Source: Metabacillus sediminilitoris (GTDB lineage: Bacteria; Bacillota; Bacilli; Bacillales; Bacillaceae). Taken from it: a stretch of DNA of 64,000 bases. The stretch lies in assembly GCF_009720625.1 (NCBI RefSeq), contig NZ_CP046266.1, forward strand, positions 1,559,501-1,623,500, written 5' to 3'. Position 1 is the stretch's first letter; each line of letters starts with the position of its first letter. The position numbers and the translations under genes are program-made. The notes below the pieces were generated by a model. That model worked only from the letters and a program-made list of their open reading frames with translations, did not search any database and had not been told where the DNA came from. This document shows, piece after piece, positions 26,615-47,233 of the stretch.

Positions 26615-26629
26615 TGGCACAAATCTTGC
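26615..26629 (+). promoter_or_regulatory. Sigma-54 (SigL) promoter of the acetyltransferase gene
   Basis: TGGCACAAATCTTGC matches TGGCAC-N5-TTGC exactly, 42 bases before the ATG at 26672. A GCATAA half-site lies at 26508-26513, about 100 bases upstream. Confidence 0.85.
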
Positions 26630-26671
26630 AAACAACAAGTTATATAATAACTATTGGAAGGAAGATGAAAT

Positions 26672-27085
26672 ATGAAAGTTCCAGTTGAAAATATCGTTGA
26701 GTTAAAAGTAGAACATCAATTTTTACAGGCGTATCCATTAATGAAACAGTTGCATGCCTATTTACATTTAGATACATTTCTTGAATTTTCAAAAAATATG
26801 CCTTATGATGGTTATCATTTATTTGGTCTATATCATGATACAAATATCGTTGCATTGGCAGGTATTAGCTGGCGTGAAAATTTACATAACAAACGCTATG
26901 TGTTTGTGCAAGATTTCGTAACAGATGCAAATCATAGACCTCATGAACTTGGATATAATCTTCTCAGTTATATTCATGAGTGGGCAAAAGAGGAGGGAGC
27001 TATATGCGTAATGGATTCATATATTCATGTTATTGTTGAAGACAAGCAATCGAGCATATTTGGAGCGGGAAATCCCATCAGATAA
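26672..27085 (+). CDS. GNAT-family acetyltransferase, SigL-dependent, possibly shortened
   Basis: A 137-residue GNAT-like protein. It has YHLFGLYHDTNIVALAGISW, YVFVQDFVTDANHRPHELGY (acetyl-CoA site, with ELGYN where RGxGxG is usual) and LLSYIHEWAKEEGAICVMDS. The normal final strand (…YENRGF…) is missing: the last 25 residues are unusual, suggesting a frameshift near the 3' end. GGAAGG lies about 10 bases before ATG. A canonical sigma-54 promoter puts it in the same control class as the putrescine genes downstream. It could act on polyamines, but that is only inference from its promoter. Confidence 0.7.
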   Translation: MKVPVENIVELKVEHQFLQAYPLMKQLHAYLHLDTFLEFSKNMPYDGYHLFGLYHDTNIVALAGISWRENLHNKRYVFVQDFVTDANHRPHELGYNLLSYIHEWAKEEGAICVMDSYIHVIVEDKQSSIFGAGNPIR

Positions 27086-27299
27086 TTCCTCTTTTTATGG
27101 CACAAATCCAATTTAGAATTTATCACATTCATATTTAAAAAAGTTATGAAAATGGGCATATATTATGCAGTAGTGGATAGTCATTCTCACAACTAGATAC
27201 GATTTAATACTAACCCAGCAAAACAAGGAATCCAACACTTGGTTTCCTTGTTGGCTTAGTCCTCATTACTTGACTATCGGTTTCTGCAACTGATAAATG

Positions 27300-27666
27300 A
27301 GAGATTAACGAAAATATATTTGTCAGCACTTTTTCCCAGTGTCTTCCTGGATCTGGGTGGTTGGCTATTGTTTTATTTGTTACAGCTGTATATTAGTTTA
27401 GTGTGAACATTGCTGCTAATTTTAATGGTTTTTTAGTTTTGGTTCAAATGTTAGTTATCTTGATCATCATCATTTTAGTAGTCAGGGGGGACTGATAATG
27501 GTGAAGGTACAAGGGCGATAGCTTCTGCACAGCGATTTAATCAATCTGACATGGTACTGTTAACATAAATTTTTGGAGTGACTATTCAGTGTTTTTACTT
27601 TTAGGCTTTGATACAGTGACGATACTGTCGGAAGAAACATCTGAGGCACATAAAGCGATCTGCGTG
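27300..27666 (+). pseudogene. Relic of an APC-family amino-acid/polyamine permease
   Basis: Readable pieces include KIYLSALFPSVF and, near 27605, LGFDTVTILSEETSEAHKAI. The latter aligns with [20 protein letters not shown] of the intact permease at 33840 and LGFDSVTTFSEETINPKKII of that at 45824. Many stops and frame changes lie between. It is a third, dead copy of the same permease type, and a damaged sigma-54 promoter and a GCATATATTATGC dyad lie upstream. Confidence 0.7.
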
Positions 27667-27917
27667 TAATCACCTAACCATTATTTGGTTGAATTACTGT
27701 ATATTGTTATATCTTAATACGTTTCTATAACTATCTCATTGTACAAGTAATTAGCAAGCACTGTTATGGGTCTTTGTAGGATACTTCTTGATTCAAATTC
27801 TCTAATAATCTGACTTATTTTGGCAGCAAGGGGTTTGGGATATCTCTTACATCTTACGAAAATGTTCACCTCAAAGTCACAGGTGCAACTTCCGAGTGTT
27901 ACATGAGTTTATTTACA

Positions 27918-27975
27918 AGTTGTTTACTAAGAATTCCTTTTGATTTTAAAGGGAAATGGTAAACAACTTTTTTAT
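27918..27975 (+). terminator. Terminator-like long hairpin
   Basis: AAGTTGTTTAC (27918-27928) pairs with GTAAACAACTT (27959-27969), followed by TTTTTATTT. It would have ended the permease relic. Confidence 0.7.
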
Positions 27976-28027
27976 TTCTATATGGTAATGTTCTAAAAAC
28001 CCCCTCGATAATAATCATTCAGAATCA

Positions 28028-28075
28028 AAGCAATTGCATAAGTTATTCAATTATGAATAACTTATGCAATTGCTT
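28028..28075. promoter_or_regulatory. Perfect 22-bp inverted repeat upstream of gdh, candidate activator site
   Basis: The arm 28028-28049 (AAGCAATTGCATAAGTTATT then CA) is the exact complement of 28054-28075, with a four-base loop. It contains TTGCATAA and TTATGCAA and lies 103 bases upstream of the sigma-54 -24 box. No T-run follows, so a terminator role is unlikely. The half-site recurs at other sigma-54 promoters in the window. Confidence 0.65.
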
Positions 28076-28177
28076 ACCTTATGAAACAGTATTCATCTCT
28101 TCTTTAAACACTAACTGTGCTATAAAACATTATTGCAAAATGAAAACTTGTTCTTTAACTTCATGCAAAGTTGGTGA

Positions 28178-28192
28178 TGGCACAGTTATTGC
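28178..28192 (+). promoter_or_regulatory. Sigma-54 promoter of the glutamate dehydrogenase operon
   Basis: TGGCACAGTTATTGC is an exact TGGCAC-N5-TTGC match, 36 bases before the gdh ATG. Confidence 0.9.
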
Positions 28193-28228
28193 AAGTATAT
28201 TTAATAAATAATTAAAAGAGGTGTTAAG

Positions 28229-29527
28229 ATGACTGTTTCAACAGCAGAAACAAAACAAAATCATTCCGTAAAGGAGCAGTTGAGCAATACAAACCCGCTA
28301 ATAGAGTTTCAGGCTGTTTTAAAAGAAGCAATTGAAGTATTACGTTATCCGAATGATGTTTTTGAATTTCTTAAAGAGCCAATGAGATTTTTAGAGGTAA
28401 GTATTCCAGTGCGTATGGATAATAACACAACAAAGGTGTTTCGCGGATATCGTGCACAGCATAATGATGCGAATGGTCCTACAAAAGGAGGGATTCGTTT
28501 TCATCCAGACGTAACGCCAGAGGAAGTAAAAGCCTTATCAGGATGGATGAGTATGAAATGTGGAATTACGGGACTTCCTTATGGGGGGGCAAAAGGGGGA
28601 ATTGTTTGTGATCCTCGAAATATGAGTTTACGAGAATTAGAGTTACTTAGCAGAGGTTACGTAAGGGCTGTTAGTCAAATTGTGGGTCCAACAAAAGATA
28701 TACCTGCACCAGATATGTATACGAATTCTCAGATCATGGCTTGGATGTTAGATGAATATGATCATATTCGAGAATTCGATTCACCAGGTTTTATTACTGG
28801 AAAACCTTTAGCTTTAGGAGGATCTGAGGGGCGGGAGACAGCAACCTCTAAAGGAGTATTGTATACGCTTGAAAGAATATGTGAATTAAAGAAAATACCA
28901 ATTAAAGAAATGACTGTTATTATTCAAGGCTTTGGAAATGTAGGCAGTTTTTTGGCGAAGTATCTGTATGAATTAGGTGCAAAGGTAGTAGGGATCTCGG
29001 ATGTCCTTGGCGGGATCTATGATCCAAATGGTTTAGACATTCCTTTATTGCTGAATAGCAGAGACTCATTCGGTATCGTTTCAAATGACATAGAAAGATC
29101 TCTATCAAATCAAGATTTATTAGAAAAAGAATGTGATATTTTAATCCCTGCAGCAATTGGAGGACAGATCACAAAAAACAATGCTAACAATATAAAATGC
29201 CAAATTGTTATAGAAGCAGCGAATGGACCAACAACAAAAGAAGCAGCAAAGATTCTGCAGGAAAGAGACATTCTTGTCGTACCGGATATTTTAGCTAACT
29301 CCGGAGGCGTAATTGTTTCTTATTTTGAATGGTGTCAAAATAATCAAGGCTACTATTGGACAGAAGAGAAAGTCGATCAGCATTTAAAGGAGAAAATAAG
29401 TTCCAGTTTTGAAAAAGTCTTTCAAACTTCCCAGTGCTTTGAGGTGGATATGAGAATAGCTGCTTATATTGAAGGTATTCGCAGGGTGACAGAAGCTTCA
29501 CGATTGCGTGGTTGGATAACGTGGTGA
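28229..29527 (+). CDS. NAD-specific glutamate dehydrogenase (RocG/GudB type)
   Basis: A 432-residue enzyme oxidising glutamate to 2-oxoglutarate and ammonia. The catalytic lysine region KCGITGLPYGGAKGGI, the preceding GPTKGGIRFHPDVT, and the nucleotide-binding IQGFGNVGSFLAKYL are intact; the C-terminal domain is complete. AAGAGGTG precedes ATG. B. subtilis RocG is also SigL-dependent and serves arginine catabolism. Here the perfect sigma-54 promoter and the location next to putrescine/GABA genes suggest it drains the glutamate produced by the PatA and GabT transaminations. It heads a three-gene operon. Confidence 0.9.
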   Translation: MTVSTAETKQNHSVKEQLSNTNPLIEFQAVLKEAIEVLRYPNDVFEFLKEPMRFLEVSIPVRMDNNTTKVFRGYRAQHNDANGPTKGGIRFHPDVTPEEVKALSGWMSMKCGITGLPYGGAKGGIVCDPRNMSLRELELLSRGYVRAVSQIVGPTKDIPAPDMYTNSQIMAWMLDEYDHIREFDSPGFITGKPLALGGSEGRETATSKGVLYTLERICELKKIPIKEMTVIIQGFGNVGSFLAKYLYELGAKVVGISDVLGGIYDPNGLDIPLLLNSRDSFGIVSNDIERSLSNQDLLEKECDILIPAAIGGQITKNNANNIKCQIVIEAANGPTTKEAAKILQERDILVVPDILANSGGVIVSYFEWCQNNQGYYWTEEKVDQHLKEKISSSFEKVFQTSQCFEVDMRIAAYIEGIRRVTEASRLRGWITW

Positions 29528-29541
29528 AGGGAGTCTAACAA

Positions 29542-29826
29542 ATGGAAATTTTATTAGAAGAGAGAGAGGATCAAACAGTACATTATTACTGTATAGCAAC
29601 TGATTATTATCGCTACGATATTTCTATCATTTATTCAAATTTGTTTTGTGGAAAAGCAATGGTTATCTCAATTCAAACTGGAAAAATGGTGTTAATGTGC
29701 AAAGAAGATATCGAAAATGAAGAATATTGGTTAGGAAGGTTGGGAATCAACACAATAGATGTTCCTGTATGTAGAGATTTTCTGCTTACAGTCTTAGATC
29801 AAAAACAGTTTGCTAATCAATATTAA
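29542..29826 (+). CDS. Small conserved protein, DUF3055/SAV0927-like
   Basis: A 94-residue cytoplasmic protein. It has YYCIATDYYRYDISIIYSNL followed by FCGKAMVISIQTGKMVLMC and a hydrophobic C-terminal helix; this resembles the small Firmicutes family DUF3055. There is no catalytic motif. GAAGGGAG precedes ATG. It lies 14 bases after gdh and 15 bases before the next small gene, so it is transcribed from the gdh sigma-54 promoter. Function unknown; a regulator or partner of Gdh is possible but unproven. Confidence 0.6.
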   Translation: MEILLEEREDQTVHYYCIATDYYRYDISIIYSNLFCGKAMVISIQTGKMVLMCKEDIENEEYWLGRLGINTIDVPVCRDFLLTVLDQKQFANQY

Positions 29827-29841
29827 GATAGAGAGGAGCAA

Positions 29842-30096
29842 GTGACGGTGTATCAGGAATTTATTATGAGTTCTATTAGTGGCACAATTGAAGAAGTTTT
29901 AATTAATATCGATTCACGGATTTACGAATGGGAAACATTATTTACAATAAAAACAGTTGATGGTGAGTTAAAAACGGTAAATGTTGGACTCAGTGGAAAA
30001 GTGTGTTCTCTTGAAGTACAAAAAGGAGATCGAGTAATACCGGGCATGGTGCTTGCCTATATAAAAGAAGATTTTATTTTATGTGGAAGTGACTAG
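29842..30096 (+). CDS. Biotin/lipoyl-like hammerhead domain protein without the modifiable lysine motif
   Basis: An 84-residue single-domain protein starting from GTG 29842 behind GAGGAG. The fold pattern resembles a BCCP/lipoyl hammerhead: SSISGTIEEVLINIDSRIYE, TLFTIKT, then LSGKVCSLEVQKGDRVIPGM and VLAYI. The hairpin that normally carries MKM or DKA is replaced by VDGELKTVNV, so it is unlikely to be biotinylated or lipoylated. It is the last gene of the gdh operon. A stand-alone unmodified domain of this type in a glutamate dehydrogenase operon is unusual; function unknown. Confidence 0.6.
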   Translation: MTVYQEFIMSSISGTIEEVLINIDSRIYEWETLFTIKTVDGELKTVNVGLSGKVCSLEVQKGDRVIPGMVLAYIKEDFILCGSD

Positions 30097-30114
30097 ATTT
30101 AAGCAGATAGGCAT

Positions 30115-30144
30115 GGAGGAGATGAATCATGATCTCCTCTTTTC
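30115..30144 (+). terminator. Terminator of the gdh operon
   Basis: GAGGAGAT (30116-30123) pairs with ATCTCCTC (30132-30139), followed by TTTTC. Confidence 0.85.
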
Positions 30145-30264
30145 AAATGTATGAAATAATTGGAAAGATAGTTCACGGAAGTGAGAAATTTTTTACTTTT
30201 AGCTCTTATTATAAGATTCTATCAAATGGTACAATAGAGTAAGAGGATTGAAGGAGGCGCACCT

Positions 30265-32403
30265 ATGTTTACACTAGCAAAAGATAAAATTAGACCAATT
30301 ATTTCATTATCAATAGACAATCCTGAAGAAGATTGGCACCTGAAAATTAGAAATCATAATGAGCCTTTTTTATTTTTAGTCAGAAAAAAACAATTAGTTG
30401 CTTATATTCGATTAAAAGATATTTTATCCAATGATAGCTGCATGAACGTAACGATTGATACCTTGTTAGACAATTCAGTCCCGATAGAGAACATATGTAA
30501 ATTAAGTGAACATATTTCATTACCGGTACTTTTTCAAATAATAGGTGAATCCATTGCTCTTGTTAAAAATGAAAAAGGTGATTTAACTGGTTATATTAGA
30601 AGAGAAGATGTGTTAGCTGAATTATTTAAACAAGATAATAGGACCAGCTTTGACTTATTAAAGATTATATTAACGTCAATTCCAATGGGCATTTTTGTAG
30701 TGGATCGTGAAAAACAAATCGTCAATTGCAATGAATCAGGTTTAAAGATGATAAAAATGACATCACATGACGTCATTCAAAAGCCTGCAGAAAATATTTT
30801 TAACGGAGATCATATTCATAATGTTTTTTTATCAAGAGAAACGATCCTAAATCAGCTCCAAATTACTGAAAAAATGGGAGTCCTTGTTGACTATAGCCCG
30901 ATAATTGATATTAATGACGAAGTTGAAGGAATTATTATTATTGTTCAGGATTTACCAATGGTTGAGGAAATGGCCATGGAAATTGAACATATAAAAAATT
31001 TAAATAAAGACCTAAATGCGATTCTTTCCACCATTTATGACGAGATTCTTGTTGTGAACAGAAATGGAGAGTTGATCCGTTATAGTGATAGCTTTATATC
31101 TGAATTCTGGGGTGTACAGCTTAAAGATTTAATCGGCAAAAGCTTGCTGGATTTAGAAGACAAAGGTTTATTCAGTCCATCCGTTACCCGTCTTGTGTTA
31201 GAACAAAAGAAAAAAGTTTCAATTGTACAAGAAACCAAAGGTGGAAAGAAAATCCTTGCAGTAGGAAATCCAGTGTTCGATGAGGACGGCAAGATTGAGA
31301 GGATCATTATTGCATCAAGAGATATTACTGAAACAACAAAGTTAAAAACTGAATTACGGGAGATAAAAAAAATATCTGATCAATATAAGCAAGAGTTGGA
31401 TACATTCAAAAATAAAGATCAGTTTTTTAAAAAAATGATCTATTGCAGTCCGAAAATGGAACAAATAATGGAGCAAGTTCAGAAAATTTCAAATTTTTCA
31501 TCTACTGTTCTAATAAACGGGGAATCTGGTGTAGGAAAAGAAGTGATAGCTCAAGCGATTCATCAACTTGGAAACCGCTCAAATCAGCCGTTTCTTAAAT
31601 TGAATTGCGGTGCTATTCCAGAAAATCTGCTGGAGAGCGAGCTATTTGGCTATATTAAGGGATCGTTTACAGGGGCGGATAAAAACGGAAAAGAAGGTTA
31701 CTTTCAAAAGGCTGATCAAGGGATTTTATTTTTGGATGAAATTGGAGAAATGCCTTTGAGCCTACAAGTTAAATTACTTAGGGTTTTGCAGGAACAAGAA
31801 GTAATACCAATTGGCAGCACAACGCCAATAAAAATAAATGTTCAGATTGTAGCAGCAACCAATAAAAAATTAGAAAAAATGGTGGAACAAGGAACATTTC
31901 GCGAAGATTTATTTTATCGATTAAATGTAATCCCAATTTACGTACCTCCATTACGCGAGAGACCAGAAGACATCCCTCTGTTAGCATTTCATTTCTTACA
32001 ACAATTAAATGAGAGATATAAGAAAAACTATCACTTATCACCAGATGCTCTAAATTTACTAGAGGTATATCCATGGCCAGGAAATATACGTGAGTTACAA
32101 AATATGATTGAAAGATTAGCAGTTTCTGCTGATCACCAAACGATAGATGCTCATTTTGTCAATCAATTTCTTGCAGTTGGTACGGATTTGAAAAAAGAAA
32201 AGCTAGTCATAAAAAAAATTCTTCCGCTTCAGGAAGCTCTTGATAGCGTTGAGGAGCAATTGATATTGCTAGCAATGAAACAATATAAGACAACAACGAA
32301 AGCTGCCAAAGCTCTGGGGGTAAGCCAGTCATCCGTTAGTCGAAAATATCAGAAAATTTTAAGTGAAAAGAACAATACGATAGATGGAGTTTTCTTAAAA
32401 TAA
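30265..32403 (+). CDS. Sigma-54-dependent transcriptional activator (CBS-like/PAS-PAS-AAA+-HTH)
   Basis: A 712-residue enhancer-binding protein. Residues 1-125 look CBS-like, residues about 130-235 and 250-358 are PAS domains, residues about 392-635 are the AAA+ sigma-54 activation domain, and about 680-702 a Fis-type helix-turn-helix (TKAAKALGVSQSSVSRKYQK). Walker A is GESGVGKE (419-426) and Walker B ILFLDE (487-492). The sigma-54 contact loop is GSFTGA (466-471) instead of GAFTGA. AAGGAGG precedes ATG. It lies within the cluster served by sigma-54 promoters and is the only such activator in the window, so it most likely controls them. The sensed signal is unknown. Confidence 0.88.
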   Translation: MFTLAKDKIRPIISLSIDNPEEDWHLKIRNHNEPFLFLVRKKQLVAYIRLKDILSNDSCMNVTIDTLLDNSVPIENICKLSEHISLPVLFQIIGESIALVKNEKGDLTGYIRREDVLAELFKQDNRTSFDLLKIILTSIPMGIFVVDREKQIVNCNESGLKMIKMTSHDVIQKPAENIFNGDHIHNVFLSRETILNQLQITEKMGVLVDYSPIIDINDEVEGIIIIVQDLPMVEEMAMEIEHIKNLNKDLNAILSTIYDEILVVNRNGELIRYSDSFISEFWGVQLKDLIGKSLLDLEDKGLFSPSVTRLVLEQKKKVSIVQETKGGKKILAVGNPVFDEDGKIERIIIASRDITETTKLKTELREIKKISDQYKQELDTFKNKDQFFKKMIYCSPKMEQIMEQVQKISNFSSTVLINGESGVGKEVIAQAIHQLGNRSNQPFLKLNCGAIPENLLESELFGYIKGSFTGADKNGKEGYFQKADQGILFLDEIGEMPLSLQVKLLRVLQEQEVIPIGSTTPIKINVQIVAATNKKLEKMVEQGTFREDLFYRLNVIPIYVPPLRERPEDIPLLAFHFLQQLNERYKKNYHLSPDALNLLEVYPWPGNIRELQNMIERLAVSADHQTIDAHFVNQFLAVGTDLKKEKLVIKKILPLQEALDSVEEQLILLAMKQYKTTTKAAKALGVSQSSVSRKYQKILSEKNNTIDGVFLK

Positions 32404-32417
32404 AATAATTGCGTATG

Positions 32418-32460: not shown

Positions 32461-32494
32461 CACAGAACAACTGAAATGAACCAAGTTTATACTT

Positions 32495-33451
32495 TTATCC
32501 ATTTATAGGTCTGTCTTTCTTCTCCTTCTCCTTTAAAGCAATTAAACTTGCAAATTCATGAACTAATGTTGCAGCAAGTAAAGAAGTAATTTGAGTTGGA
32601 TCATATGGAGGGAGCACTTCGACAAGATCAAAACCGATAAAATGAAATTCAGTAAGCGATCTAACCAATTCTAGTGTTTCAAAACTAGTAAAGCCTCCAA
32701 CTTCCAATGTTCCTGTACCAGGTGCAAAGGAAGGGTCAACAAAGTCAATGTCAAACGTCAAGAAACATGGAGTATCTCCTATCTTTTCTTTTACCTCTCT
32801 TACAACATCCTTTATGCCACGTTTTTTTAGATCCTGAGTCGTAATAACTTGATACCCCAGATCATAGCTTGCTTGTATGTCGCCCGGGTGATTCAACGTG
32901 CCTCGAATCCCAATTTGAAAGACCTTGTCTGATTGTAAAAGACCCTCTTCATGTGCACGAATGAATGGTGAACCGTGCCAATATTTTTCATCATAATACG
33001 TATCCCATGTGTCGGTATGGGAATCAAATTGAATTAATGCGACAGGACCGTATATTTTTGCAGCAGCTCGCAAAGTTGCTAACGTTACGGAGTGGTCTCC
33101 TCCTAAACCTATTGGTATAATTCCACTTTTCATAAGTTCGATCACAGCAGATTCAATTTGTTCATAGCTTCGGTGAATATTATGTGGTATGACAGAAACA
33201 TCTCCAATATCAATTGCGTTTGTATCATCAAAAGGATAAATTTCATGAATTGGATGGTATGGAAATAACGTCATTGAAGCCTGACGAATTGCTTGAGGGG
33301 CAAACCGTGCCCCTACCCGAAAGGATGCAGCAGTATCAAAAGGCATCCCTAAAATAGCGATCTTCGCATTCTCACGAGAGGATGGTAAACGCATAAATGA
33401 GCCGGTTGTACAAAATTCTGGTTTTACGTCTGGTGATAATGGATACTTCAT
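32495..33451 (-). CDS. speB: Agmatinase / ureohydrolase family
   Basis: A 318-residue Mn-dependent ureohydrolase. The metal ligands are in GLGGDHSVT, QFDSHTDTWD and LTFDIDFVDPSFAPGTGT, all intact. TTGGAGGAAG precedes ATG. Agmatinase makes putrescine and urea from agmatine; guanidinobutyrase is the main alternative in this family. The adjacent putrescine permease, aminotransferase and aldehyde dehydrogenase favour agmatine. A near-consensus sigma-54 promoter lies 49 bases upstream. As the biosynthetic SpeB of bacilli is usually next to speE, this is probably a catabolic paralogue. Confidence 0.82.
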   Translation of the reverse strand: MKYPLSPDVKPEFCTTGSFMRLPSSRENAKIAILGMPFDTAASFRVGARFAPQAIRQASMTLFPYHPIHEIYPFDDTNAIDIGDVSVIPHNIHRSYEQIESAVIELMKSGIIPIGLGGDHSVTLATLRAAAKIYGPVALIQFDSHTDTWDTYYDEKYWHGSPFIRAHEEGLLQSDKVFQIGIRGTLNHPGDIQASYDLGYQVITTQDLKKRGIKDVVREVKEKIGDTPCFLTFDIDFVDPSFAPGTGTLEVGGFTSFETLELVRSLTEFHFIGFDLVEVLPPYDPTQITSLLAATLVHEFASLIALKEKEKKDRPING

Positions 33452-33500: not shown

Positions 33501-33515
33501 GCAAGATTTATGCCA
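33501..33515 (-). promoter_or_regulatory. Sigma-54 promoter of the agmatinase gene
   Basis: On the minus strand TGGCATAAATCTTGC: one mismatch (T for C in the -24 box) from TGGCAC-N5-TTGC. It faces away from the permease promoter at 33716. Confidence 0.78.
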
Positions 33516-33599
33516 ATTACAATTTTTATTAGTAGATTTGAGTTTTTCACGATGAATAGGAAATGAGTCGTGTGATTCCTTTATGTTGCTCTGACTAAC

Positions 33600-33606
33600 T
33601 TATGCA
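33600..33606. promoter_or_regulatory. TTATGCA half-site between divergent sigma-54 promoters
   Basis: TTATGCA with a loosely matching arm (TGAATAAAG at about 33611) lies about 85 bases from the speB -24 box and 110 bases from the permease -24 box. It could serve both promoters. Confidence 0.4.
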
Positions 33607-33715
33607 GGATTGAATAAAGCGTAGTTATCCACCAATAGTAGTCGACCAATCTTGTAATTGATCAATATAAGACTCATTAGCGGTTTTTTGGCTATATTTC
33701 TACAAATTCATGTTT

Positions 33716-33730
33716 TGGCACGTATATTGC
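33716..33730 (+). promoter_or_regulatory. Sigma-54 promoter of the putrescine permease gene
   Basis: TGGCACGTATATTGC, an exact TGGCAC-N5-TTGC match, 109 bases before the GTG start at 33840. The long leader holds no supported ORF. Confidence 0.85.
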
Positions 33731-33839: not shown

Positions 33840-35189
33840 GTGGAAAATGGTGTGAGGTTAAAGCGTTCTTTAAAATTATGGCAAGTTATTATGATGGGAT
33901 TGGCATATATGACCCCAATGGTCGTATTTGATACATTCGGAATTGTGTCAGATATTACTGGTGGACATGTCCCTGCTGCCTATTTCATAGCTTTGACGGC
34001 AATGTTATTTACTGCAGCAAGCTATGGGAAATTAGTCAAGGCATTTCCTATAGCTGGTTCTGCATATACGTATACTCAAAAGACGATAAATTCCCATCTC
34101 GGATTTATGGTTGGGTGGTCTGCGTTATTGGACTATCTTTTTTTGCCAATGGTTAATGCTTTACTAACAAAGATTTATCTTTCTACATTGTTTCCTGGTG
34201 TTCCGTCGTGGATATGGGTAGTTTTCTTTGTTGGACTTGTTACTTTTTTAAATTTGAAAAGTGTCAACATTTTAGCCAATTTCAATACGGTTTTGGTTAT
34301 GATTCAAATAGCAATCATGATCATATTTGTTGTATTGGTCATTCAGGGACTTCACCAGGGCGAAGGTACTGGAAAAGTATTAACACTTCAGCCATTTATT
34401 GAAGAAGGTATGCAAATTCCGGCATTAATTACTGGTGCGACAATTCTTTGTTTTTCATTTTTAGGTTTTGATGCCGTCTCAACTCTTACAGAAGAGACAG
34501 CGAATCCGACAAAAACAATCCCTCACGCTATTTTCCTGACGGCGCTGTTTGGAGGAGTTATATTCATTACCACGTCATATTTTATTCAAGCATTTTTTCC
34601 TGATATGTCTAGATTTGAACAACCTGACGCAGCTCTTCCTGAGATTGCACTTTATGTTGGTGGAAAATTCTTTCAGTCTATTTTTTTAGTGACAACATTT
34701 GTTAATACTTTAGCTTCTGCATTAGCTTCGCATGCAAGTGTGTCCAGATTGTTATATGTAATGGGGCGTGATAATGTCTTTCCAGAAAAATGGTTTGGAT
34801 TTATCCATCCACGCTGGAAAACTCCATCGTTTAATGTTTTATTGGTTGGTACAATTTCATTGTCAGCAATTTTCTTTGATTTAGTGACAGCAACGGCGCT
34901 AATAAATTTTGGGGCGTTAATTGCGTTTACATTCGTTAATCTAAGTGTGATCAGTCATTTTGTTGTTCGTGAGAAAAAACATAAGACGGTTAAAGGGTTT
35001 ATCAACTATGTGATAATGCCGTTAATTGGAGCAGGTGCGGTGGCTGTTCTATGGTTCAACCTGGAATTAAGCTCATTTACAATTGGTTTAGTTTGGGCAT
35101 TCTTTGGACTTTGCTATCTTTTGTACATTACAAAAATGTTAAAATCCAGACCGCCTCAATTTGAATATGAGGAAAAAGTGGAAATGTAG
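33840..35189 (+). CDS. APC-family permease, PuuP-like putrescine importer
   Basis: A 449-residue transporter with about 12 membrane segments and the APC signatures [32 protein letters not shown] and [16 protein letters not shown]. The [20 protein letters not shown] block is typical of the PuuP/YfnA-like branch. The start GTG 33840 has AAGGGGGA upstream; an ATG two bases earlier is out of frame. It lies upstream of the putrescine degradation genes and has its own sigma-54 promoter, so putrescine or agmatine import is the best guess. A close paralogue is at 45824 and a dead one at 27300. Confidence 0.82.
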
Positions 35190-35247: not shown

Positions 35248-35362
35248 TTTGAGCTTTCAAGATATTCTTTTTTGCAGCACCAAGCGTTTCTGTAAGTAGT
35301 TACTTATTAAAAATTAGTCGGATTCATTCCATTGTTTGTGTTTATTCATAATTAAATAATTT

Positions 35363-35378
35363 TATGCATATTTGCATA
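35363..35378. promoter_or_regulatory. TATGCA/TGCATA dyad upstream of the aldehyde dehydrogenase promoter
   Basis: TATGCATATTTGCATA forms an inverted repeat of the half-site with a four-base spacer, 51 bases upstream of the -24 box. It matches the half-sites at gdh and the 47179 operon. Confidence 0.5.
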
Positions 35379-35429
35379 GATTTTGCAATGATCCTATGAA
35401 TCTATCATCTAAAACACACCTTTTGAGAT

Positions 35430-35444
35430 TGGCACACTTCTTGC
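35430..35444 (+). promoter_or_regulatory. Sigma-54 promoter of the aldehyde dehydrogenase-patA operon
   Basis: TGGCACACTTCTTGC is an exact TGGCAC-N5-TTGC match, 33 bases before ATG 35478. Confidence 0.9.
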
Positions 35445-35477: not shown

Positions 35478-38349
<2,872 letters not shown>

Positions 38350-38523: not shown

Positions 38524-39873
38524 ATGAAAGATTTTGTAACTTTAAATACCGCAATACCTGGGCCGAAGTCTCAAAGTCTATTGGAAAGAAGACAAAGAGT
38601 CGTGCCGAAAGGGATAAGCAATGGATGCCCCGCTTTTGTTAGTAAGGCAAAAGGTGCACTTGTTGAAGATATCGATGGGAATACATTTATTGATTTTGCC
38701 GGTGCTATTGGAACAATCAATGTTGGACATTCGCATCCACAAGTAGTAAAAGCTCTGCAAGAACAAGCTGAGAATTTTATTCATACGGGCTTTAATGTCA
38801 TGATGTATGAATCCTATATTGAATTGGCTGAAAGACTAACTGAGCTTGCTCCAGGAGAATTCTCTAAACAAGCAGCTTTTTTTAATAGTGGTGCTGAAGC
38901 TGTTGAAAACGCAGTGAAAATTGCCCGGAAGTATACAAAAAGACAAGGTGTTGTTTCTTTTACAAGAGGTTTTCATGGACGAACGTTAATGACGATGACA
39001 ATGACGAGTAAAGTAAAACCTTACAAATATGGATTTGGACCTTTTGCTCCAGAAGTGTATAAAGCCCCATATCCATATGTATATCGCAGACCAGAAGAAA
39101 TGAACGAAGAACAGTACAGTCAATTTATGATTCAGCAATTTGAGCAATTTTTAGTTTCAGAGGTTGCCCCTGAAACGATTGCAGCCGTTGTTATGGAACC
39201 AGTGCAAGGTGAAGGTGGCTTTATCGTTCCTGACAAAGCTTTTGTACAACGAGTTTATGAAATTTGTAAAGAAAACGGTATCGTTTTTGTTGCTGATGAA
39301 ATCCAAACGGGTTTTGGTCGTACTGGCGGCTATTTTGCCATAGAGCATTTTGGTGTAACACCTGACCTTATTACAATCTCGAAGTCTATGGGCGCAGGGA
39401 TGCCAATAAGTGGTGTTATTGGAAGAGAAGAAATAATGCGCGTTTCTGAACCAGGGGAACTCGGAGGAACATATGCGGGAAGCCCGCTAGGATGTCAAGC
39501 AGCACTTGCGGTACTTGATATTATTGAAAAAGAAAACCTAAATAACCGAGCGCAAGTGATCGGTCAAAAGGTAATGGACAAGTTTCAGCAATTGTCTGAC
39601 CGTTTTGAGCAGGTTGATGGTATTCGGGGTCTTGGTGCAATGTGTGCTTTAGAGATTGTAAAAGATAAAAATAGTAAAACACCAGATAAAGAAACTACAG
39701 GGAGAATTGTAAAGGAAGCAACGAACAGAGGGCTTCTTTTATTAAGTGCAGGTGTATTTGGCAATGTAATTCGTATTTTAATGCCTCTTACTATCTCAGA
39801 TGAGCAGCTCGATGAAGGACTATCAATTTTAGAAGATGCCACAGAAGCAGTTCTTGCACCACAATATATTTAA
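38524..39873 (+). CDS. gabT: 4-aminobutyrate aminotransferase
   Basis: A 449-residue class III PLP aminotransferase of the GabT type: GHSHPQVVKALQEQAENFIHT, AAFFNSGAEAVENAVKIAR, GFHGRTLMTMTMTSK, VMEPVQGEGGFIVP, and the PLP lysine in LITISKSMGAGMPISG. It converts GABA and 2-oxoglutarate to succinate semialdehyde and glutamate. AGGAAGGTG precedes ATG. It is next to gabD with an 18-base gap. I could not find a clear sigma-54 box in the 174-base upstream region, so its promoter may be sigma-A or be fed by read-through. Confidence 0.9.
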   Translation: MKDFVTLNTAIPGPKSQSLLERRQRVVPKGISNGCPAFVSKAKGALVEDIDGNTFIDFAGAIGTINVGHSHPQVVKALQEQAENFIHTGFNVMMYESYIELAERLTELAPGEFSKQAAFFNSGAEAVENAVKIARKYTKRQGVVSFTRGFHGRTLMTMTMTSKVKPYKYGFGPFAPEVYKAPYPYVYRRPEEMNEEQYSQFMIQQFEQFLVSEVAPETIAAVVMEPVQGEGGFIVPDKAFVQRVYEICKENGIVFVADEIQTGFGRTGGYFAIEHFGVTPDLITISKSMGAGMPISGVIGREEIMRVSEPGELGGTYAGSPLGCQAALAVLDIIEKENLNNRAQVIGQKVMDKFQQLSDRFEQVDGIRGLGAMCALEIVKDKNSKTPDKETTGRIVKEATNRGLLLLSAGVFGNVIRILMPLTISDEQLDEGLSILEDATEAVLAPQYI

Positions 39874-39890: not shown

Positions 39891-41354
39891 ATGAATCCAA
39901 ATTTAACGAATCAGAAAAATAGTTTGTTTAGCATGTATATAGATGGGAAATGGGTAGGGAATGAGTGTCAGGAATTTGCAGAAGTAATAAATCCTGCAAC
40001 GAATGAAGTGGTTGGAATCATTCCAAAAGGTGGAGCCAATGAGGCTAAACAAGCAGTTGATGCCGCTCATCGAGCTTTTAAAGTATGGTCAAAAAAAACA
40101 GCTGAAGAACGCGGTCAACTTTTAATGAAATGGTTTCACTTAATTGATGATAATAAGGAAGAAATAGGAAGGATCATGACATTAGAGCAGGGGAAGCCGG
40201 TAAAAGAGGCTGTCGGTGAGGTAATGTATGCAAATAGTTTTATCTCTTGGTACGCAGAAGAGGGAAAGCGGATTTATGGAGAGACGATTCCAGCTTCACA
40301 CCCTCATAAGCGAATACTTGTCCGTAAAGAACCAGTTGGGGTCATTGCAGCGATTACACCTTGGAATTTCCCAGCTGCGATGATTACGCGAAAAGTAGCG
40401 CCAGCACTTGCAGCAGGGTGTACAGCTGTCGTCAAACCCGCACAACAAACCCCGCTAACTGCTTTAAAATTAGCAGAGTTAGCAGACAAGGCTGGCATTC
40501 CAAAAGGTGTTTTGAACATTGTAACAGGTAAGGCGAAGGAGATTGGGGATGCATGGTTAAACGATGCTCGTGTTAGAAAAATTACGTTTACAGGATCTAC
40601 AGAAGTTGGAAAAGTATTAATGAGAGCTGCTGCCGAAAACGTGAAAAAAATTTCTCTCGAATTGGGAGGAAATGCTCCGTTTATAGTGATGGATGATGCT
40701 GATTTAGAGAAAGCAGCTATAGGATTAGTTAATTCGAAGTTTCGAAACGCAGGCCAAACATGTATATGTACAAATAGAATTTATGTACATGAAGCAGTTG
40801 CAGACCAATTTGTGGAAATGTTTAAAAACGAGCTTGCAAAACTTAAGGTAGGTAACGGGCTTGTAGAAGGAATTGATATTGGGCCATTAATTGATCAAGC
40901 AGCAGTAGATAAAGTGAAAACTCTAATTGATGATGCAGTAGTGCATGGTGGGAAAATAGTTTATGGTGAAGAAAATCCCGTAATTGGTGAAGGTTTTTAC
41001 TATAATCCGACTATTATTACGAATGTTAATGATCAAATGTTATGTGTAAGTGAAGAAATATTTGGACCGCTCGCACCGATTGCAACATTTAAAACAGAGC
41101 AAGAAGTGATTGAGAGGGCGAATCATACAAATTATGGACTTGCTGCTTATGTATATACCGAAAATCTTAGCTGTGCTTTCCGCATCAGTGAAGAACTTGA
41201 ATATGGGATCATCGGTCTGAACGATGGATTACCTTCAGCTGCACAAGCGCCTTTTGGAGGTTATAAAGAAAGTGGGTTAGGAAGAGAAGGCGGCCATCAC
41301 GGGATTGAAGAATACCTTGAAGTAAAATATATTTCGATTGCTTTAAACAATTAA
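39891..41354 (+). CDS. gabD: Succinate-semialdehyde dehydrogenase
   Basis: A 487-residue NAD(P)-dependent ALDH of the GabD branch: ITPWNFPAAMITRKVAPALAAG, FTGSTEVGKVLM, the general base in SLELGGNAPFIV and cysteine in NAGQTCICTNRIYV, ending APFGGYKESGLGREGG. It makes succinate from succinate semialdehyde and so delivers the carbon to the TCA cycle. AGAGATGA precedes ATG. It is the last enzyme of the putrescine-GABA chain encoded here and is co-directional with gabT and pdxS. Confidence 0.9.
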   Translation: MNPNLTNQKNSLFSMYIDGKWVGNECQEFAEVINPATNEVVGIIPKGGANEAKQAVDAAHRAFKVWSKKTAEERGQLLMKWFHLIDDNKEEIGRIMTLEQGKPVKEAVGEVMYANSFISWYAEEGKRIYGETIPASHPHKRILVRKEPVGVIAAITPWNFPAAMITRKVAPALAAGCTAVVKPAQQTPLTALKLAELADKAGIPKGVLNIVTGKAKEIGDAWLNDARVRKITFTGSTEVGKVLMRAAAENVKKISLELGGNAPFIVMDDADLEKAAIGLVNSKFRNAGQTCICTNRIYVHEAVADQFVEMFKNELAKLKVGNGLVEGIDIGPLIDQAAVDKVKTLIDDAVVHGGKIVYGEENPVIGEGFYYNPTIITNVNDQMLCVSEEIFGPLAPIATFKTEQEVIERANHTNYGLAAYVYTENLSCAFRISEELEYGIIGLNDGLPSAAQAPFGGYKESGLGREGGHHGIEEYLEVKYISIALNN

Positions 41355-41545: not shown

Positions 41546-42427
<882 letters not shown>

Positions 42428-42463
42428 ATAAAAATTCTATTATTAAAACAATTTTCAAAAATA

Positions 42464-42498
42464 TATACCTGGACCTTATTTTTCAATGTCCAGGTATA
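42464..42498. terminator. Hairpin downstream of pdxS
   Basis: TATACCTGGAC (42464-42474) pairs perfectly with GTCCAGGTATA (42488-42498). The T-rich flank is on the minus-strand side; it may stop transcription in either direction. Confidence 0.5.
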
Positions 42499-43050: not shown

Positions 43051-43097
43051 AAAGAATCCATTTTAATCAATTTTATTAAAATGGATTCTTTTTATTT
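43051..43097 (+). terminator. Strong terminator-like hairpin
   Basis: AAAGAATCCATTTTAAT (43051-43067) pairs perfectly with ATTAAAATGGATTCTTT (43075-43091), followed by TTATTTATT. It could also end the minus-strand operon in the other direction. Confidence 0.75.
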
Positions 43098-43232
43098 ATT
43101 ACAAAAATCTTGGTTTGTAAGGTGTTGTGCTCAAACTTTATTTCAAGACTACATATAGCATCGTAAAAAATCGGTAACTGCTCCATGCCCCTTTTATTTT
43201 AAAGGACTATTTACTTGCTTTTTGAGATTTTT

Positions 43233-44138
43233 TTATTCGTTAGCTAATAAAGCTTTGTTTGTTCTTTTTTTTACAGTAGAGGGTGTTGGAAGCATTTCCT
43301 TTTGTAATAGAGGGGCGTATGTGTCGACACGACGGTCCCTAAAGAATTGTAGAATTTTCCTTGTATTTTCTATTTCTTTTAAATCAATCTCTTGTACGAT
43401 AATTCCTTCTTCATCATCAAGTGAAGCTAAAATATTCCCTAATGTATCGCTAATGAATGAACCACCGTAAAAATTCATGTCCTTTTCCTGACCAACTCGA
43501 TTGGTTGCAGCAACAAATACACCATTAGAAATACCATGAGCTGAAATTGCCTTTTCCCAGGATGATCGTGTAGATAACTCAGGATGATCTGGCTCTGAAC
43601 CAATAGCAGAAGGATAGAATAATATCTCAGCCCCTTGTAAGCTCAAAATTCGAGCAACCTCAGGGAACCATTCGTCCCAGCAAATCCCAATCCCTATTTT
43701 TCCATAAGCAGTTTCATAGACAGGATACCCAGTATTGCCAGGAACAAAATAATATTTTTCATGATACTGCGGACCATCTGGAATATGATTTTTTCTAGTA
43801 ATACCTAAACATTCTCCATCAGCATCAAATACAGCTGCACTATTAAAATAAATACCAGCACCTGCTCTTTCGTAAAAAGGAACAATCAAAACAATTCCTA
43901 ATTTCTTTGCCAATTCACCCATTTCGGCTAATGTGCCACTATCTACATCTTCTGCTAAATCATAATTTTCCACGTTTACCGTTTGCGGAAAATACTGTGA
44001 AGAGAATAATTCCTGTAAACAAACAATTTGTGCCCCTTTATGTACCGTTTCTTTAATTTTCTCTATCGTTTTTTGAATATTTTCCTCAATATATTCCCCG
44101 CAATGAATTTGAATAAGACCAACTTTTACTTTTGACAT
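43233..44138 (-). CDS. Carbon-nitrogen hydrolase, N-carbamoylputrescine amidase (AguB)-like
   Basis: A 301-residue nitrilase-superfamily amidase with catalytic Glu in VCLQELFSSQYF, Lys in TRKNHIPDGPQYHEKYYF and Cys in GIGICWDEWFPE. The YFVPGNTGYPVYET and YPSAIGSEPDHPE segments resemble AguB enzymes, which release putrescine from N-carbamoylputrescine; beta-ureidopropionases are the alternative. GTGAGGAA precedes ATG. It is the third gene of a sigma-54 operon with a permease and an amidohydrolase. No agmatine deiminase (AguA) is present in the window, so the carbamoyl substrate may be imported or made elsewhere. Confidence 0.78.
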   Translation of the reverse strand: MSKVKVGLIQIHCGEYIEENIQKTIEKIKETVHKGAQIVCLQELFSSQYFPQTVNVENYDLAEDVDSGTLAEMGELAKKLGIVLIVPFYERAGAGIYFNSAAVFDADGECLGITRKNHIPDGPQYHEKYYFVPGNTGYPVYETAYGKIGIGICWDEWFPEVARILSLQGAEILFYPSAIGSEPDHPELSTRSSWEKAISAHGISNGVFVAATNRVGQEKDMNFYGGSFISDTLGNILASLDDEEGIIVQEIDLKEIENTRKILQFFRDRRVDTYAPLLQKEMLPTPSTVKKRTNKALLANE

Positions 44139-44170
44139 TTCCTCACTACCTTCTTTTTTATTTTTTAATC

Positions 44171-45796
44171 TTATACTGTTGGGACGACCTGGTTTTCATA
44201 TATAATCTTTCCATCCATAATCGTCATTTTTACTTCAGTTTCAAGAATTTCCTCTGTTGATATATTGAATAAATTTTTATTTAACACTACGATATCCGCG
44301 ATCTTTCCTGCTTCTAATGTACCTAATTCTTTTTCTCTGAAAGACCCAAATGCTGGTGTAGCCGTGTAGAATTTTAATGCTTGTGCTAATGTAACACCTT
44401 CTGACTTTTGCCACGCTTTCCCGTTTAAATCTTTTCTCGTGATTGCCTGATAGATACCCATCATAGGGTTTAGAGGTACTACCGGAAAATCTGTACCAAA
44501 GGCAGCCTTAGCACCAGTATCTACTATTGTCTTGATAGGATAATAGAGAGGTTTTTGTTCTTCACTAATTCTAGCTGTATATGCCTCACTTTCCATTAAT
44601 TCAATATGTTTGGGTTGAAAGGAAGCGATTACACCTAATTCCTTAAAGCGATGGACATCGTCCGTATGCAATACCTCAACATGTTCAATGACATGTCTAG
44701 CATCTCTTACCCCATTTTCGTTTCTCGCTTCTTCAAATGCATCTAATGCTAAGCGGACAGCACCGTTACCAATAGCATGGAAACGAATTTGGAATTTTTC
44801 CTTATCGGCCTTTTTTACTAATTGTTTAATTGTTTCAGATGGATACGTGGTTCCACCTTTTGTTTCTGGGCGGTCTTTATACGGATCCAGCAAAAACGCA
44901 GTATGGCTGGTTACAACACCATCTATAAATTGTTTTAATCCAGAAAAGGTAAGCTTATCTGATTGATAATTTATTTGTAATTCCTTTGCTTCAGCTAAAT
45001 CCATTTTTAACTCTGGTGAAAAGTGAATTCTAGTTGTAAGTAACCCTTCTCTATCAAATTCTTTAAAAATTTCAAGATCGTCTAATAGGTTTGGTGCAAT
45101 TTTAGCTCCATATAAATCATTAACGGATGTGATTCCTAATCTTTTTGTTTCACTTAGGAAGTCTTGGAATAGTTGTACACGCTTTTCTTTTGGTAATTTG
45201 TATGCATGTTCTGTTGCATAACCAATTGCATGTTCAAATAAAAGGCCTGTCAGTTCACCGTTTTCGTCTTTTCCAATTTCTCCATATTCAGGATCAGGTG
45301 TATCCTTCGTTAATTGAATCATTTCTATTGCTTTACTATTTAACCATGCGTAATGCACTTCTGCATTGAATAATAAAACTGGACGATCAAAAATATACTT
45401 ATCTAATGTGGTTCGATGTGGCAGAACTTTTTCTTTCCATTTGGTATGATCCCATCCTACACCAAATATCCACTCATCATTAGGTCTTGTTTCTACAAAT
45501 TTAGCTACTATTTTAGCTGCTTCTTCTTCTGAAGTTGCATCAAATAATTTGACACTATCCTTCTGTAGAATACTACCCATCATTATGTGCATATGAAAAT
45601 CATGAAATCCCGGAATAATTAGTTCCTCTTCCATGTCAAATACTTTTGTTTGGTCTCCAATGAGTGACCATATTTCTTCTTTAGGGCCGATCTCAATAAT
45701 TTTATTATCTTTAATAGCAATAGTTGCTTTTATTGGCTCATCTTGCAGCCCCGTAAAAACATATTTACTAGAAAGAATGATGTCTGCTTTTACCAT
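44171..45796 (-). CDS. Amidohydrolase family 3 (YtcJ-like) metal-dependent hydrolase
   Basis: A 541-residue amidohydrolase of the YtcJ/NfdA group. It has the N-terminal metal pair HDFHMHIM, a Trp-rich substrate region (VGWDHTKWK), then FHAIGNGAVRLALDAF, RHVIEHVEVL and the catalytic Asp in FGTDFPVVPLNPM. AAGGGGGA precedes ATG. Family members hydrolyse N-substituted formamides, carbamates or cyclic amides. It sits between a PuuP-like permease and an AguB-like amidase, so it may open a cyclic or N-acylated polyamine derivative before the amidase step. The actual reaction is unknown. Confidence 0.75.
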   Translation of the reverse strand: MVKADIILSSKYVFTGLQDEPIKATIAIKDNKIIEIGPKEEIWSLIGDQTKVFDMEEELIIPGFHDFHMHIMMGSILQKDSVKLFDATSEEEAAKIVAKFVETRPNDEWIFGVGWDHTKWKEKVLPHRTTLDKYIFDRPVLLFNAEVHYAWLNSKAIEMIQLTKDTPDPEYGEIGKDENGELTGLLFEHAIGYATEHAYKLPKEKRVQLFQDFLSETKRLGITSVNDLYGAKIAPNLLDDLEIFKEFDREGLLTTRIHFSPELKMDLAEAKELQINYQSDKLTFSGLKQFIDGVVTSHTAFLLDPYKDRPETKGGTTYPSETIKQLVKKADKEKFQIRFHAIGNGAVRLALDAFEEARNENGVRDARHVIEHVEVLHTDDVHRFKELGVIASFQPKHIELMESEAYTARISEEQKPLYYPIKTIVDTGAKAAFGTDFPVVPLNPMMGIYQAITRKDLNGKAWQKSEGVTLAQALKFYTATPAFGSFREKELGTLEAGKIADIVVLNKNLFNISTEEILETEVKMTIMDGKIIYENQVVPTV

Positions 45797-45823
45797 TTTT
45801 ATCCCCCTTAATAGATCTAGATT

Positions 45824-47179
45824 TTATGTTTGAATTTCATTTACCTCGGCACGATCAATAGAAAGCTCTGGTGGCCGTTTATTAAACATTTTCGTAGTAG
45901 AGAGGAGCATGATGAAGCCAATTCCGAACCATCCTAGTCCGAGTATAAGCGCCTTTGAATCGAGGCTAGTCCATAACCAAATTGTGAAACTAACACCAAT
46001 CAGTGGACAAATTAGATATTTTAGTGTGTTAATTCCGTTTCTTTGTTTCTCTCTAATAAAATAATGAGAAATAACTGAAATATTAACAAATGTAAATGCA
46101 ACAAGCGCTCCAAAGTTAATAAAGGATGATGCTGTTACTAAATCAACAAATAAAGCAGATAAAGCGAAAATGCCAACTAAGATAATATTGTATGTTGGTG
46201 TTCCAAATTTCGGATGAATATGACCAAATATTCGCTTAGGAAGGACTCCGTCTCTTCCCATTGCATACAATAGTCGCGAAACGCTTGCGTGAGATGATAA
46301 ACCAGATGCTAGCCCCCCAGTAATAAATCCTGCTAGAAAAATAGATTGGAATAAATTGCCCCCAACGTAGATAGCAATTTCTAAAGCAGCAGAATCTGAA
46401 TCTTTAAAGGATTGGAAGTTTGGGTAAACAAGGTGACTAAGGTATGAGATGGTGATAAACAAACCACCTCCTATTAATGCGACAAGGAAAATAGCCTTCG
46501 GTATTATTTTTTTAGGATTAATGGTCTCTTCTGAAAATGTAGTAACAGAATCAAATCCTAAAAAAGATAAACACAAAATAGAAGAACCTGCTAATACTAA
46601 AGATAGTGGTATATCTCCATTCACAAATGGAGAACTCATAAATAATGTTCCTGAACCCATTCCGTTAAGCAACCCTTTAATACAGAGGAATGTGAATATA
46701 GCTATTATCAAGAATTGACAGGCAACTAATAAAAGATTTATCTTTGTTGCTATTTTTACTCCGATTACATTTACAATGGTGATTAAAATTAAGAAACCAA
46801 TTAACCATACCGAAAAAGGAATGGATGGGAAGTAAGAATTTAAGTAAATAGCTATTAGTAAACCATTAATCATTGGCAAAAATAAATAGTCTAATAGTAT
46901 AACCCAACCTACTAAAAATCCAATATGAGGGTTAAGTGCCTTTCGAGTATATGTATAAGCAGAACCAGCAACAGGGTAGGCTTTAACCATTTGACCATAA
47001 CTGTATGCTGTAAACAACATACCAATTAAAGCTATTATATAAGCAGCTGGTACCATTCCTTTTGTAATTTCCGCAACAACCCCATAAGTGGAAAACACGG
47101 TTGTAGGTGCCATATAAGCCAATCCAAATAATACTAAAGGAAATATTGTTAATGAACGTTTTAGTTTTAAATTTTCCAT
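45824..47179 (-). CDS. APC-family permease, second PuuP-like copy
   Basis: A 451-residue transporter with about 12 membrane segments, closely related to the permease at 33840: both have the same [38 protein letters not shown] type of loop, [30 protein letters not shown] and [23 protein letters not shown] precedes ATG. It is the first gene of a sigma-54 operon with the amidohydrolase and the AguB-like amidase. It probably imports their substrate, a derivative of putrescine or a related amine. Confidence 0.82.
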   Translation of the reverse strand: MENLKLKRSLTIFPLVLFGLAYMAPTTVFSTYGVVAEITKGMVPAAYIIALIGMLFTAYSYGQMVKAYPVAGSAYTYTRKALNPHIGFLVGWVILLDYLFLPMINGLLIAIYLNSYFPSIPFSVWLIGFLILITIVNVIGVKIATKINLLLVACQFLIIAIFTFLCIKGLLNGMGSGTLFMSSPFVNGDIPLSLVLAGSSILCLSFLGFDSVTTFSEETINPKKIIPKAIFLVALIGGGLFITISYLSHLVYPNFQSFKDSDSAALEIAIYVGGNLFQSIFLAGFITGGLASGLSSHASVSRLLYAMGRDGVLPKRIFGHIHPKFGTPTYNIILVGIFALSALFVDLVTASSFINFGALVAFTFVNISVISHYFIREKQRNGINTLKYLICPLIGVSFTIWLWTSLDSKALILGLGWFGIGFIMLLSTTKMFNKRPPELSIDRAEVNEIQT

Positions 47180-47218
47180 GTATCACTCCACCTTTTAATC
47201 GTATTTAATTTACTTATT

Positions 47219-47233
47219 GCAAATATCATGCCA
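47219..47233 (-). promoter_or_regulatory. Sigma-54 promoter of the permease-amidohydrolase-amidase operon
   Basis: On the minus strand TGGCATGATATTTGC (one mismatch in the -24 box) with TTGC at the correct spacing, 39 bases before the permease ATG. Confidence 0.8.

Follow-up and report, generated by a model that had tools for sequence, protein, structure and literature searches.

In the genome of Metabacillus sediminilitoris (5.60 Mb, one contig), a 64-kb stretch (positions 1559501-1623500, in the following the window) carries a set of predicted amine-catabolic genes around a gene for a sigma-54-dependent activator, named 30265 here after its first position. The set includes a GNAT acetyltransferase, glutamate dehydrogenase (GDH; gdh), an arginase-family ureohydrolase, two APC-type permeases and an aldehyde dehydrogenase (ALDH) together with patA. 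These identities had been proposed from the letters alone (the sequence-only reading), and family searches uphold them in outline (Table 1). The same reading assigned six sigma-54 promoters in this cluster to one regulon. Our data argue for most of this proposal: very probably, 30265 governs a catabolic regulon of the sigma-54 type in this cluster, from five promoters with a conserved upstream activating sequence (UAS), those of gdh, the ureohydrolase, permease 1, ALDH-patA and permease 2, whereas no significant UAS precedes the promoter of the GNAT gene.

All six promoter sites are present on the strands and at the positions reported before, each as an exact match to TGGCAY-N5-TTGC, which combines the core sequence of -24/-12 promoters with their conserved spacing. 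Dinucleotide shuffles contain 0.17 such sites on average, and none out of 100 reached six. The genome has one sigma-54 gene and 52 exact sites versus only 4 for the pattern read backwards, so that the bulk of the 52 are probably genuine. Six of them fall within 21 kb, where an even spread would place 0.2. The distance from the end of the site to the start codon amounts to 42 bases for GNAT, 36 for gdh, 109 for permease 1, 49 for the ureohydrolase, 33 for ALDH and 39 for permease 2, in line with the range of 33-109 bases given previously. The sequence-only reading had also proposed a comparison with related genomes: in 25 loci with orthologues of the activator, sigma-54 sites recur before the same genes, and an exact site precedes ALDH in all 25. 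Chance matches without function could account for the six sites in the sense that four reversed-pattern matches exist in the genome, but the clustering, the spacing to the start codons, the conservation in those loci and the linked UAS make this explanation extremely improbable.

The feature that unites the five promoters is the palindrome YTATKCA-N4-TGMATAR, which is absent from the sequence-only reading and is centred 59-126 bp upstream of them. We regard it as the predicted UAS, that is, the enhancer expected for 30265. Using a matrix that includes the window, the best match in the 260 bp upstream scores 21.5 for gdh, 19.1 for permease 1 and the ureohydrolase, 23.7 for ALDH, 19.0 for permease 2 and 6.0 for GNAT. 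None of the 45 other genomic sigma-54 sites compared has a UAS scoring at least 9 (one of the 52, at 5442429, stood outside the comparison). Five copies of the exact core TATKCA-N4-TGMATA exist in the 5.6 Mb genome, three of them in the cluster; at the other two (L106, L107; L numbers denote loci, G numbers genomes), no sigma-54-like site lies within the 3 kb examined. Two further UAS-like sites occur in the window, a palindrome at 8493-8514 (score 17.6) directly before rpiA and a site at 17582-17603 (score 13.1), neither of them near an exact sigma-54 site.

The same palindrome emerges from the related loci, for which we used the 25 loci with activator orthologues of 65-84% identity, after two with distant activators (L101, L102) had been dropped from 27. 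Among 80 promoters in which a homologue of a window gene starts at most 400 bases from the sigma-54 site, the most enriched upstream 7-mer is TTATGCA/TGCATAA (57 of 80 versus 6.8 expected), and it resolves into the palindrome. In the window and its relatives together, a score of at least 9 is found at 26/26 promoters of the ALDH class (into which the relatives' 'gabD'-labelled promoters, being ALDH promoters, were pooled), 24/24 of the gdh class, 16/18 of the permease 1 class, 5/6 ureohydrolase promoters and 2/2 labelled permease 2, one of which (L083) belongs to a permease 1-like gene. Neither of two GNAT promoters and neither of two sites labelled upstream of the activator, both inside blp, reaches this score. 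Two or more UAS sites are present in 36 of 76 promoters, and 36 of the 38 intervals between neighbours are 19 or 20 bp, corresponding to two helix turns, as expected for adjacent dimers. The relatives' loci contain 74 strong sites. All but six stand upstream of a sigma-54 site, and three of the six exceptions lie inside the activator gene, within its first 160 bases.

The signal persists when the matrix and the scored promoters are kept apart. A matrix from the relatives' ALDH promoters alone gives 20.8 for gdh, 18.5 for permease 1/ureohydrolase and 16.3 for permease 2 in the window (p 0.0002-0.0008), and p 0.08 for GNAT. In a held-out set of 12 loci, 26 sigma-54 sites precede homologues of cluster genes (three of these homologues being weak, with 24-30% identity); a UAS of at least 13 accompanies 22 of the 26, as against 0 of 5 other sigma-54 sites and 0.3% of shuffles. 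L183 and L185 were excluded from this set because they duplicate L093 and L097, and L144, which has a relaxed promoter only, contributed no row.

Concerning the regulator, 30265 is a protein of 712 aa with the order CBS-PAS-PAS-AAA-HTH (helix-turn-helix). It matches Sigma54_activat (PF00158) with 239.8 bits and HTH_50 at its C-terminus, and the loop of its AAA+ domain reads GSFTGA, with G[AS]FTGA across the orthologue alignment. A C-terminal HTH and a UAS upstream of the targets characterize bacterial enhancer-binding proteins, and both are found here, the UAS at five of six promoters. The genome has 20 Sigma54_activat matches, 15 of them above 200 bits, and the cluster contains a single activator gene, as the sequence-only reading had stated. 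Across 27 activator sequences including that of the window, the HTH is nearly invariant. Among 299 genomes of the order, the composite of UAS, spacer and promoter occurs in 19, the activator (E <= 1e-200) in 31 and both in 16, with a Fisher p of 1.9e-15 that is optimistic because the genomes are related.

Several observations weigh against a regulon under 30265 as drawn here. With a matrix from gdh promoters alone, the site of permease 1/ureohydrolase drops to 12.2 (p 0.009), against p 0.0002 for both ALDH and permease 2. A strong UAS is missing in L080 at one of two permease 1 promoters and at the ureohydrolase, in L082 at permease 1, and among the held-out loci at gabT in L181 and L182 and at permease 1 in L186 and L189. 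Elsewhere, the sampled stretches of the genome contain weak matches of 13-14, one of 13.5 downstream of its sigma-54 site (L013) and one of 13.9 common to L044 and L069. The related genomes and loci are non-independent samples, and the strict composite, a pattern that is narrow by design, is missing from 15 of the 31 genomes with the activator. Three composite genomes have paralogous activators only (39-50% identity); therefore, the motif belongs to the activator subfamily and alone does not name 30265. Finally, the 260 bp upstream of the GNAT promoter contain no significant UAS (p 0.07).

The composite beside paralogous activators in three genomes is also what speaks for a sharing of the cluster promoters among several activators, RocR- or GabR-like, with the palindrome as a motif of the subfamily. 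We consider such sharing very unlikely, as the HTH of 30265 scores 216 against itself, compared with 120 for the best paralogue of this genome, and at most 79 for the other thirteen, the RocR-like protein (35) among them, and the rocD-side promoters have no UAS. The labels RocR and rocD are presumptive in this genome, resting on sequence reading rather than on a family test. Three identities were rejected. For PrdR (NF041552), 30265 reaches 433 bits at a cut-off of 795. GabR has a single N-terminal PAS and about 57 kDa, in contrast to the 712 aa with two PAS domains and a CBS-like pair found here. RocR sites had been suspected from a likeness (ATGCA...TGCAT), but the rocD-side promoters score -3.4 and -1.3 and the HTH comparison is 35 versus 216. 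Separately, in L209, L210 and L211, palindrome and sigma-54 promoter stand beside paralogous activators and in front of an amidohydrolase, an apparent ptb/leucine-dehydrogenase operon and a nitrilase, which suggests an activator subfamily with one DNA code.

The GNAT promoter may use the downstream gdh enhancer, another activator or an unseen site. If the first applied, 30265 would serve all six promoters, with the GNAT gene relying on the gdh enhancer 1.4 kb downstream, like rocG of B. subtilis, whose GDH gene reportedly has a downstream enhancer. L077 retains the GNAT sigma-54 promoter, and the distance from it down to the gdh UAS (7814) is only ~0.6 kb there. We nevertheless regard this extension as unlikely: among the 25 orthologous loci, L077 alone shows this arrangement, which is thus confined to two genomes, neither genome has a significant UAS within 260 bp upstream, and another of the 15 activators could serve the gene. 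The best exact match between window and L077 upstream of GNAT is 10 bases, without a footprint, and the GNAT homologues on two Priestia plasmids have unrelated surroundings.

Table 1. Features of the cluster, with positions counted from the first letter of the window
Feature	Position	Strand	Basis or remark
Sigma-54 promoter, GNAT gene	26615..26629	+	exact pattern; no significant UAS within 260 bp
GNAT acetyltransferase, 137 aa	26672..27085	+	PF00583
Perfect palindrome, 48 bp (22-bp arms, 4-base loop)	28028..28075	.	encloses gdh UAS and two outer half-sites
Predicted gdh UAS	28041-28062	.	score 21.1-21.5
Sigma-54 promoter, gdh-SAV0927-like-blp	28178..28192	+	exact pattern; kept in relatives
Glutamate dehydrogenase gdh	28229..29527	+	profile search; probable role glutamate to 2-oxoglutarate and ammonia
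SAV0927-like small protein	29542..29826	+	PF11256
Small biotin/lipoyl-like protein 'blp'	29842..30096	+	PRK06748-related, 92 bits, cut-off 111
Sigma-54 activator 30265, proposed regulator	30265..32403	+	CBS-like pair, two PAS, AAA+ with GSFTGA, HTH
Arginase-family ureohydrolase (agmatinase or guanidinobutyrase)	32495..33451	-	TIGR01230 over cut-off; nearest PDB chain guanidinobutyrase
Sigma-54 promoter, ureohydrolase gene	33501..33515	-	exact pattern
Predicted UAS common to divergent ureohydrolase and permease 1 promoters	33598..33619	.	score 18.6-19.1
Sigma-54 promoter, permease 1	33716..33730	+	exact pattern
APC-type permease 1	33840..35189	+	profile search
Predicted tandem UAS pair upstream of ALDH, 20 bp apart	35340..35381	.	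scores 15.2 and 23.7
Sigma-54 promoter, ALDH-patA(-gabT-gabD)	35430..35444	+	exact pattern; seen in relatives
Aldehyde dehydrogenase, probable aminobutyraldehyde step	35478..36977	+	profile search
Putrescine aminotransferase PatA	36931..38349	+	above NF008570 cut-off
GABA (gamma-aminobutyrate) aminotransferase GabT	38524..39873	+	above TIGR00700 cut-off
Succinate-semialdehyde dehydrogenase GabD	39891..41354	+	above TIGR01780 cut-off
N-carbamoylputrescine amidase-like nitrilase	43233..44138	-	TIGR03381 below cut-off (337 vs 410 bits); closest PDB chain 5h8i
PF07969 amidohydrolase	44171..45796	-	family search
APC-type permease 2	45824..47179	-	profile search
Sigma-54 promoter, permease 2-amidohydrolase-nitrilase operon	47219..47233	-	exact pattern
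Predicted tandem UAS pair upstream of permease 2, 19 bp apart	47315..47355	.	scores 10.9 and 19.0

Regarding the pathway, the sequence-only reading had proposed a chain from agmatine to succinate, which is reasonable except that the ureohydrolase, called an agmatinase there, may be a guanidinobutyrase. It passes the TIGR01230 agmatinase profile (219 bits, cut-off 174), though it falls narrowly short of the PRK02190 agmatinase model (288 bits, cut-off 302). Its best PDB matches are guanidinobutyrase 3nio (234.7 bits), guanidinopropionase (222.4) and proclavaminate amidinohydrolase (205.8), compared with 194 for E. coli agmatinase 7lol. In place of loop B of the E. coli type (T188-E189), all eight sequences compared, including that of the window, have GTLNHPGD; as far as the available part of the study goes, a change of T188-E189 strongly lowers the activity of the E. 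coli enzyme (PMC8125230). Both observations are consistent with 4-guanidinobutyrate instead of agmatine as the trunk substrate, which would yield GABA and urea directly and leave putrescine, imported separately, to PatA and ALDH. The TIGR01230 result, the start of loop A (HTDT plus an aromatic residue), which resembles that of E. coli agmatinase, and the fact that ALDH-PatA, a putrescine route, forms the constant core of the loci point the other way. The guanidinobutyrate route, which is compatible with the regulon under 30265, is hence a possibility that we judge somewhat less probable than its opposite.

Permease 2 was already placed under sigma-54 by the sequence-only reading, and its site does carry a UAS; what that reading omitted is the operon headed by the permease, with an amidohydrolase and a carbamoylputrescine-amidase-like nitrilase that stays below the family cut-off (Table 1). 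The amidohydrolase is present in 23 of the 299 genomes including that of the window, and 16 of the other 22 were examined. In five of these (L144, L147, L149, L151, L152), permease 2-amidohydrolase is preceded by a UAS and a sigma-54-like promoter, four times with TGGTA replacing TGGCA, and all five genomes have an activator orthologue (>800 bits). Five others with an orthologue (G106, G290, G331, G275, G082) have neither a UAS in front of the amidohydrolase nor permease 2 next to it. The six genomes without an orthologue also lack the UAS (0/6), a thin negative, as permease 2 adjoins the amidohydrolase in two only and one of these (G151) is cut by a contig end. In L152, ureohydrolase and permease 2-amidohydrolase are adjacent, each with UAS and promoter. 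L181 and L182 each contain a nitrilase from the family of the window enzyme, ~1.2 kb behind a sigma-54-like site; this site has one UAS in common with the divergent blp-activator promoter. Based on these comparisons, the permease 2 operon probably belongs to the regulon. Since a search of the genome found no agmatine deiminase (PF04371), the carbamoylputrescine-amidase-like enzyme, if acting as named, would use an imported substrate.

Downstream of ALDH-patA, a simple scan found no plus-strand terminator-like site from patA to gabD, so that ALDH-patA-gabT-gabD may form one transcript. Behind gabD follows pdxS (41546-42427, +) without a pdxT-sized open reading frame directly after it; pdxS might supply pyridoxal phosphate to both aminotransferases. 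Three pdxS genes of this genome are over the cut-off, and L077 has the same gabD-pdxS order. Blp comprises 84 aa and, judged by eye, apparently misses the usual modified lysine position. Just upstream of gdh (27217-27900, +) lies a decayed APC permease remnant in two frames; in relatives, for example L081, L084 and L085, the corresponding place is occupied by a permease gene equipped with a UAS and sigma-54 promoter of its own. Another gene remnant (about 26150-26425, +) presumably represents the C-terminus of a cysteine desulfurase of the NifS type, a label based on its motif.

Taken together, the regulon under 30265 would probably operate as follows. The CBS/PAS sensor region would detect a compound of the pathway, and dimers of 30265 would bind YTATKCA-N4-TGMATAR, often at two adjacent sites 19-20 bp apart, 59-126 bp upstream of the -24/-12 promoters. 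The activated protein would then open RNA polymerase-sigma-54 complexes at gdh, the ureohydrolase gene, permease 1, ALDH-patA(-gabT-gabD) and permease 2-amidohydrolase-nitrilase. Their products would import diamines or guanidino compounds, release putrescine or GABA and convert them to succinate. PatA and GabT each form glutamate from 2-oxoglutarate, and GDH closes that loop; here it would return the glutamate of both aminotransferases to 2-oxoglutarate with release of ammonia. Beyond the window, we tentatively propose a regulon of Bacillales in which a CBS-PAS-PAS activator with its own enhancer code governs a constant core and exchangeable feeder modules. The core would consist of ALDH-patA, usually gdh and often gabT-gabD. 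Feeder modules could be the guanidino-acid/agmatine ureohydrolase and the permease-amidohydrolase-nitrilase operon, the latter freeing putrescine from N-acyl or N-carbamoyl conjugates. To our knowledge, no such role has been assigned to this amidohydrolase family (PF07969).

Judged from its sequence, this regulon is ordinary in kind and, for five of the six promoters, well supported as real and conserved. For the breakdown of polyamines to succinate in Bacillales, of which our search of the openly accessible literature found fragments only, it would provide a regulator dedicated to the task, an exact enhancer sequence and a list of targets. The UAS makes the regulon readable directly from genomes and hints at a function for the permease-amidohydrolase-nitrilase operon. 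Besides, it suggests how different sigma-54 activators tie catabolic GDH to different amine pathways.

The sequence-only reading had regarded such a regulon as not described. Our search of the openly accessible literature (subscription journals lay mostly outside it) likewise found no description of the complete regulon, but parts of it are in print. Its kind is known from RocR, GabR, AguQ and NtrC-patA. In the available part of a computational survey from 2025, GDH (COG0334) and arginase/agmatinase (COG0010) are predicted to be mainly sigma-54 targets in Bacillota, and 4-aminobutyrate aminotransferase is a predicted target in Bacilli (PMC12316311). These predictions remain at the COG level, and that part gives no activator, UAS or integrated pathway. 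Further literature for comparison is available in part (PMC4524646, PMC3162934, PMC4348106).

The closest parallel for gdh is the RocR/SigL arginine regulon, where, in the accounts available, rocG of B. subtilis encodes a catabolic GDH under sigma-54 and a PAS-type activator. The accessible description of the RocR-dependent operon of B. thuringiensis begins with a biotin-carrier-like protein, comparable to blp, and extends to the permease RocC. Unlike RocR, the activator of the window has 712 aa with a CBS-like pair and two PAS domains, another HTH and another UAS, and its predicted targets include PatA and GABA genes; a RocR-like activator is located elsewhere in the same genome, outside the cluster. 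GabR of the B. thuringiensis gab cluster is likewise a PAS-AAA-HTH activator, which drives gabT in response to GABA or succinic semialdehyde. In contrast to 30265, GabR (57 kDa) contains a single PAS domain, its binding site is an inverted repeat of 21 bp interrupted by a gap of 5 bp, and the available parts of its descriptions mention neither a ureohydrolase nor patA or gdh as targets (PMC4279683, PMC4428206). AguQ of Clostridium is a sigma-54 activator for agmatine genes that was also reconstructed by UAS comparison; its targets in the accessible account are aguDA, aguBC and aguQT (PMC6615313), whereas no agmatine deiminase was seen in the genome of the window. In E. coli, patA is under sigma-54 as well, there with NtrC (and sigma-S) according to the part of the study available (PMC9397018), compared with the dedicated local activator that we propose for M. 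sediminilitoris.

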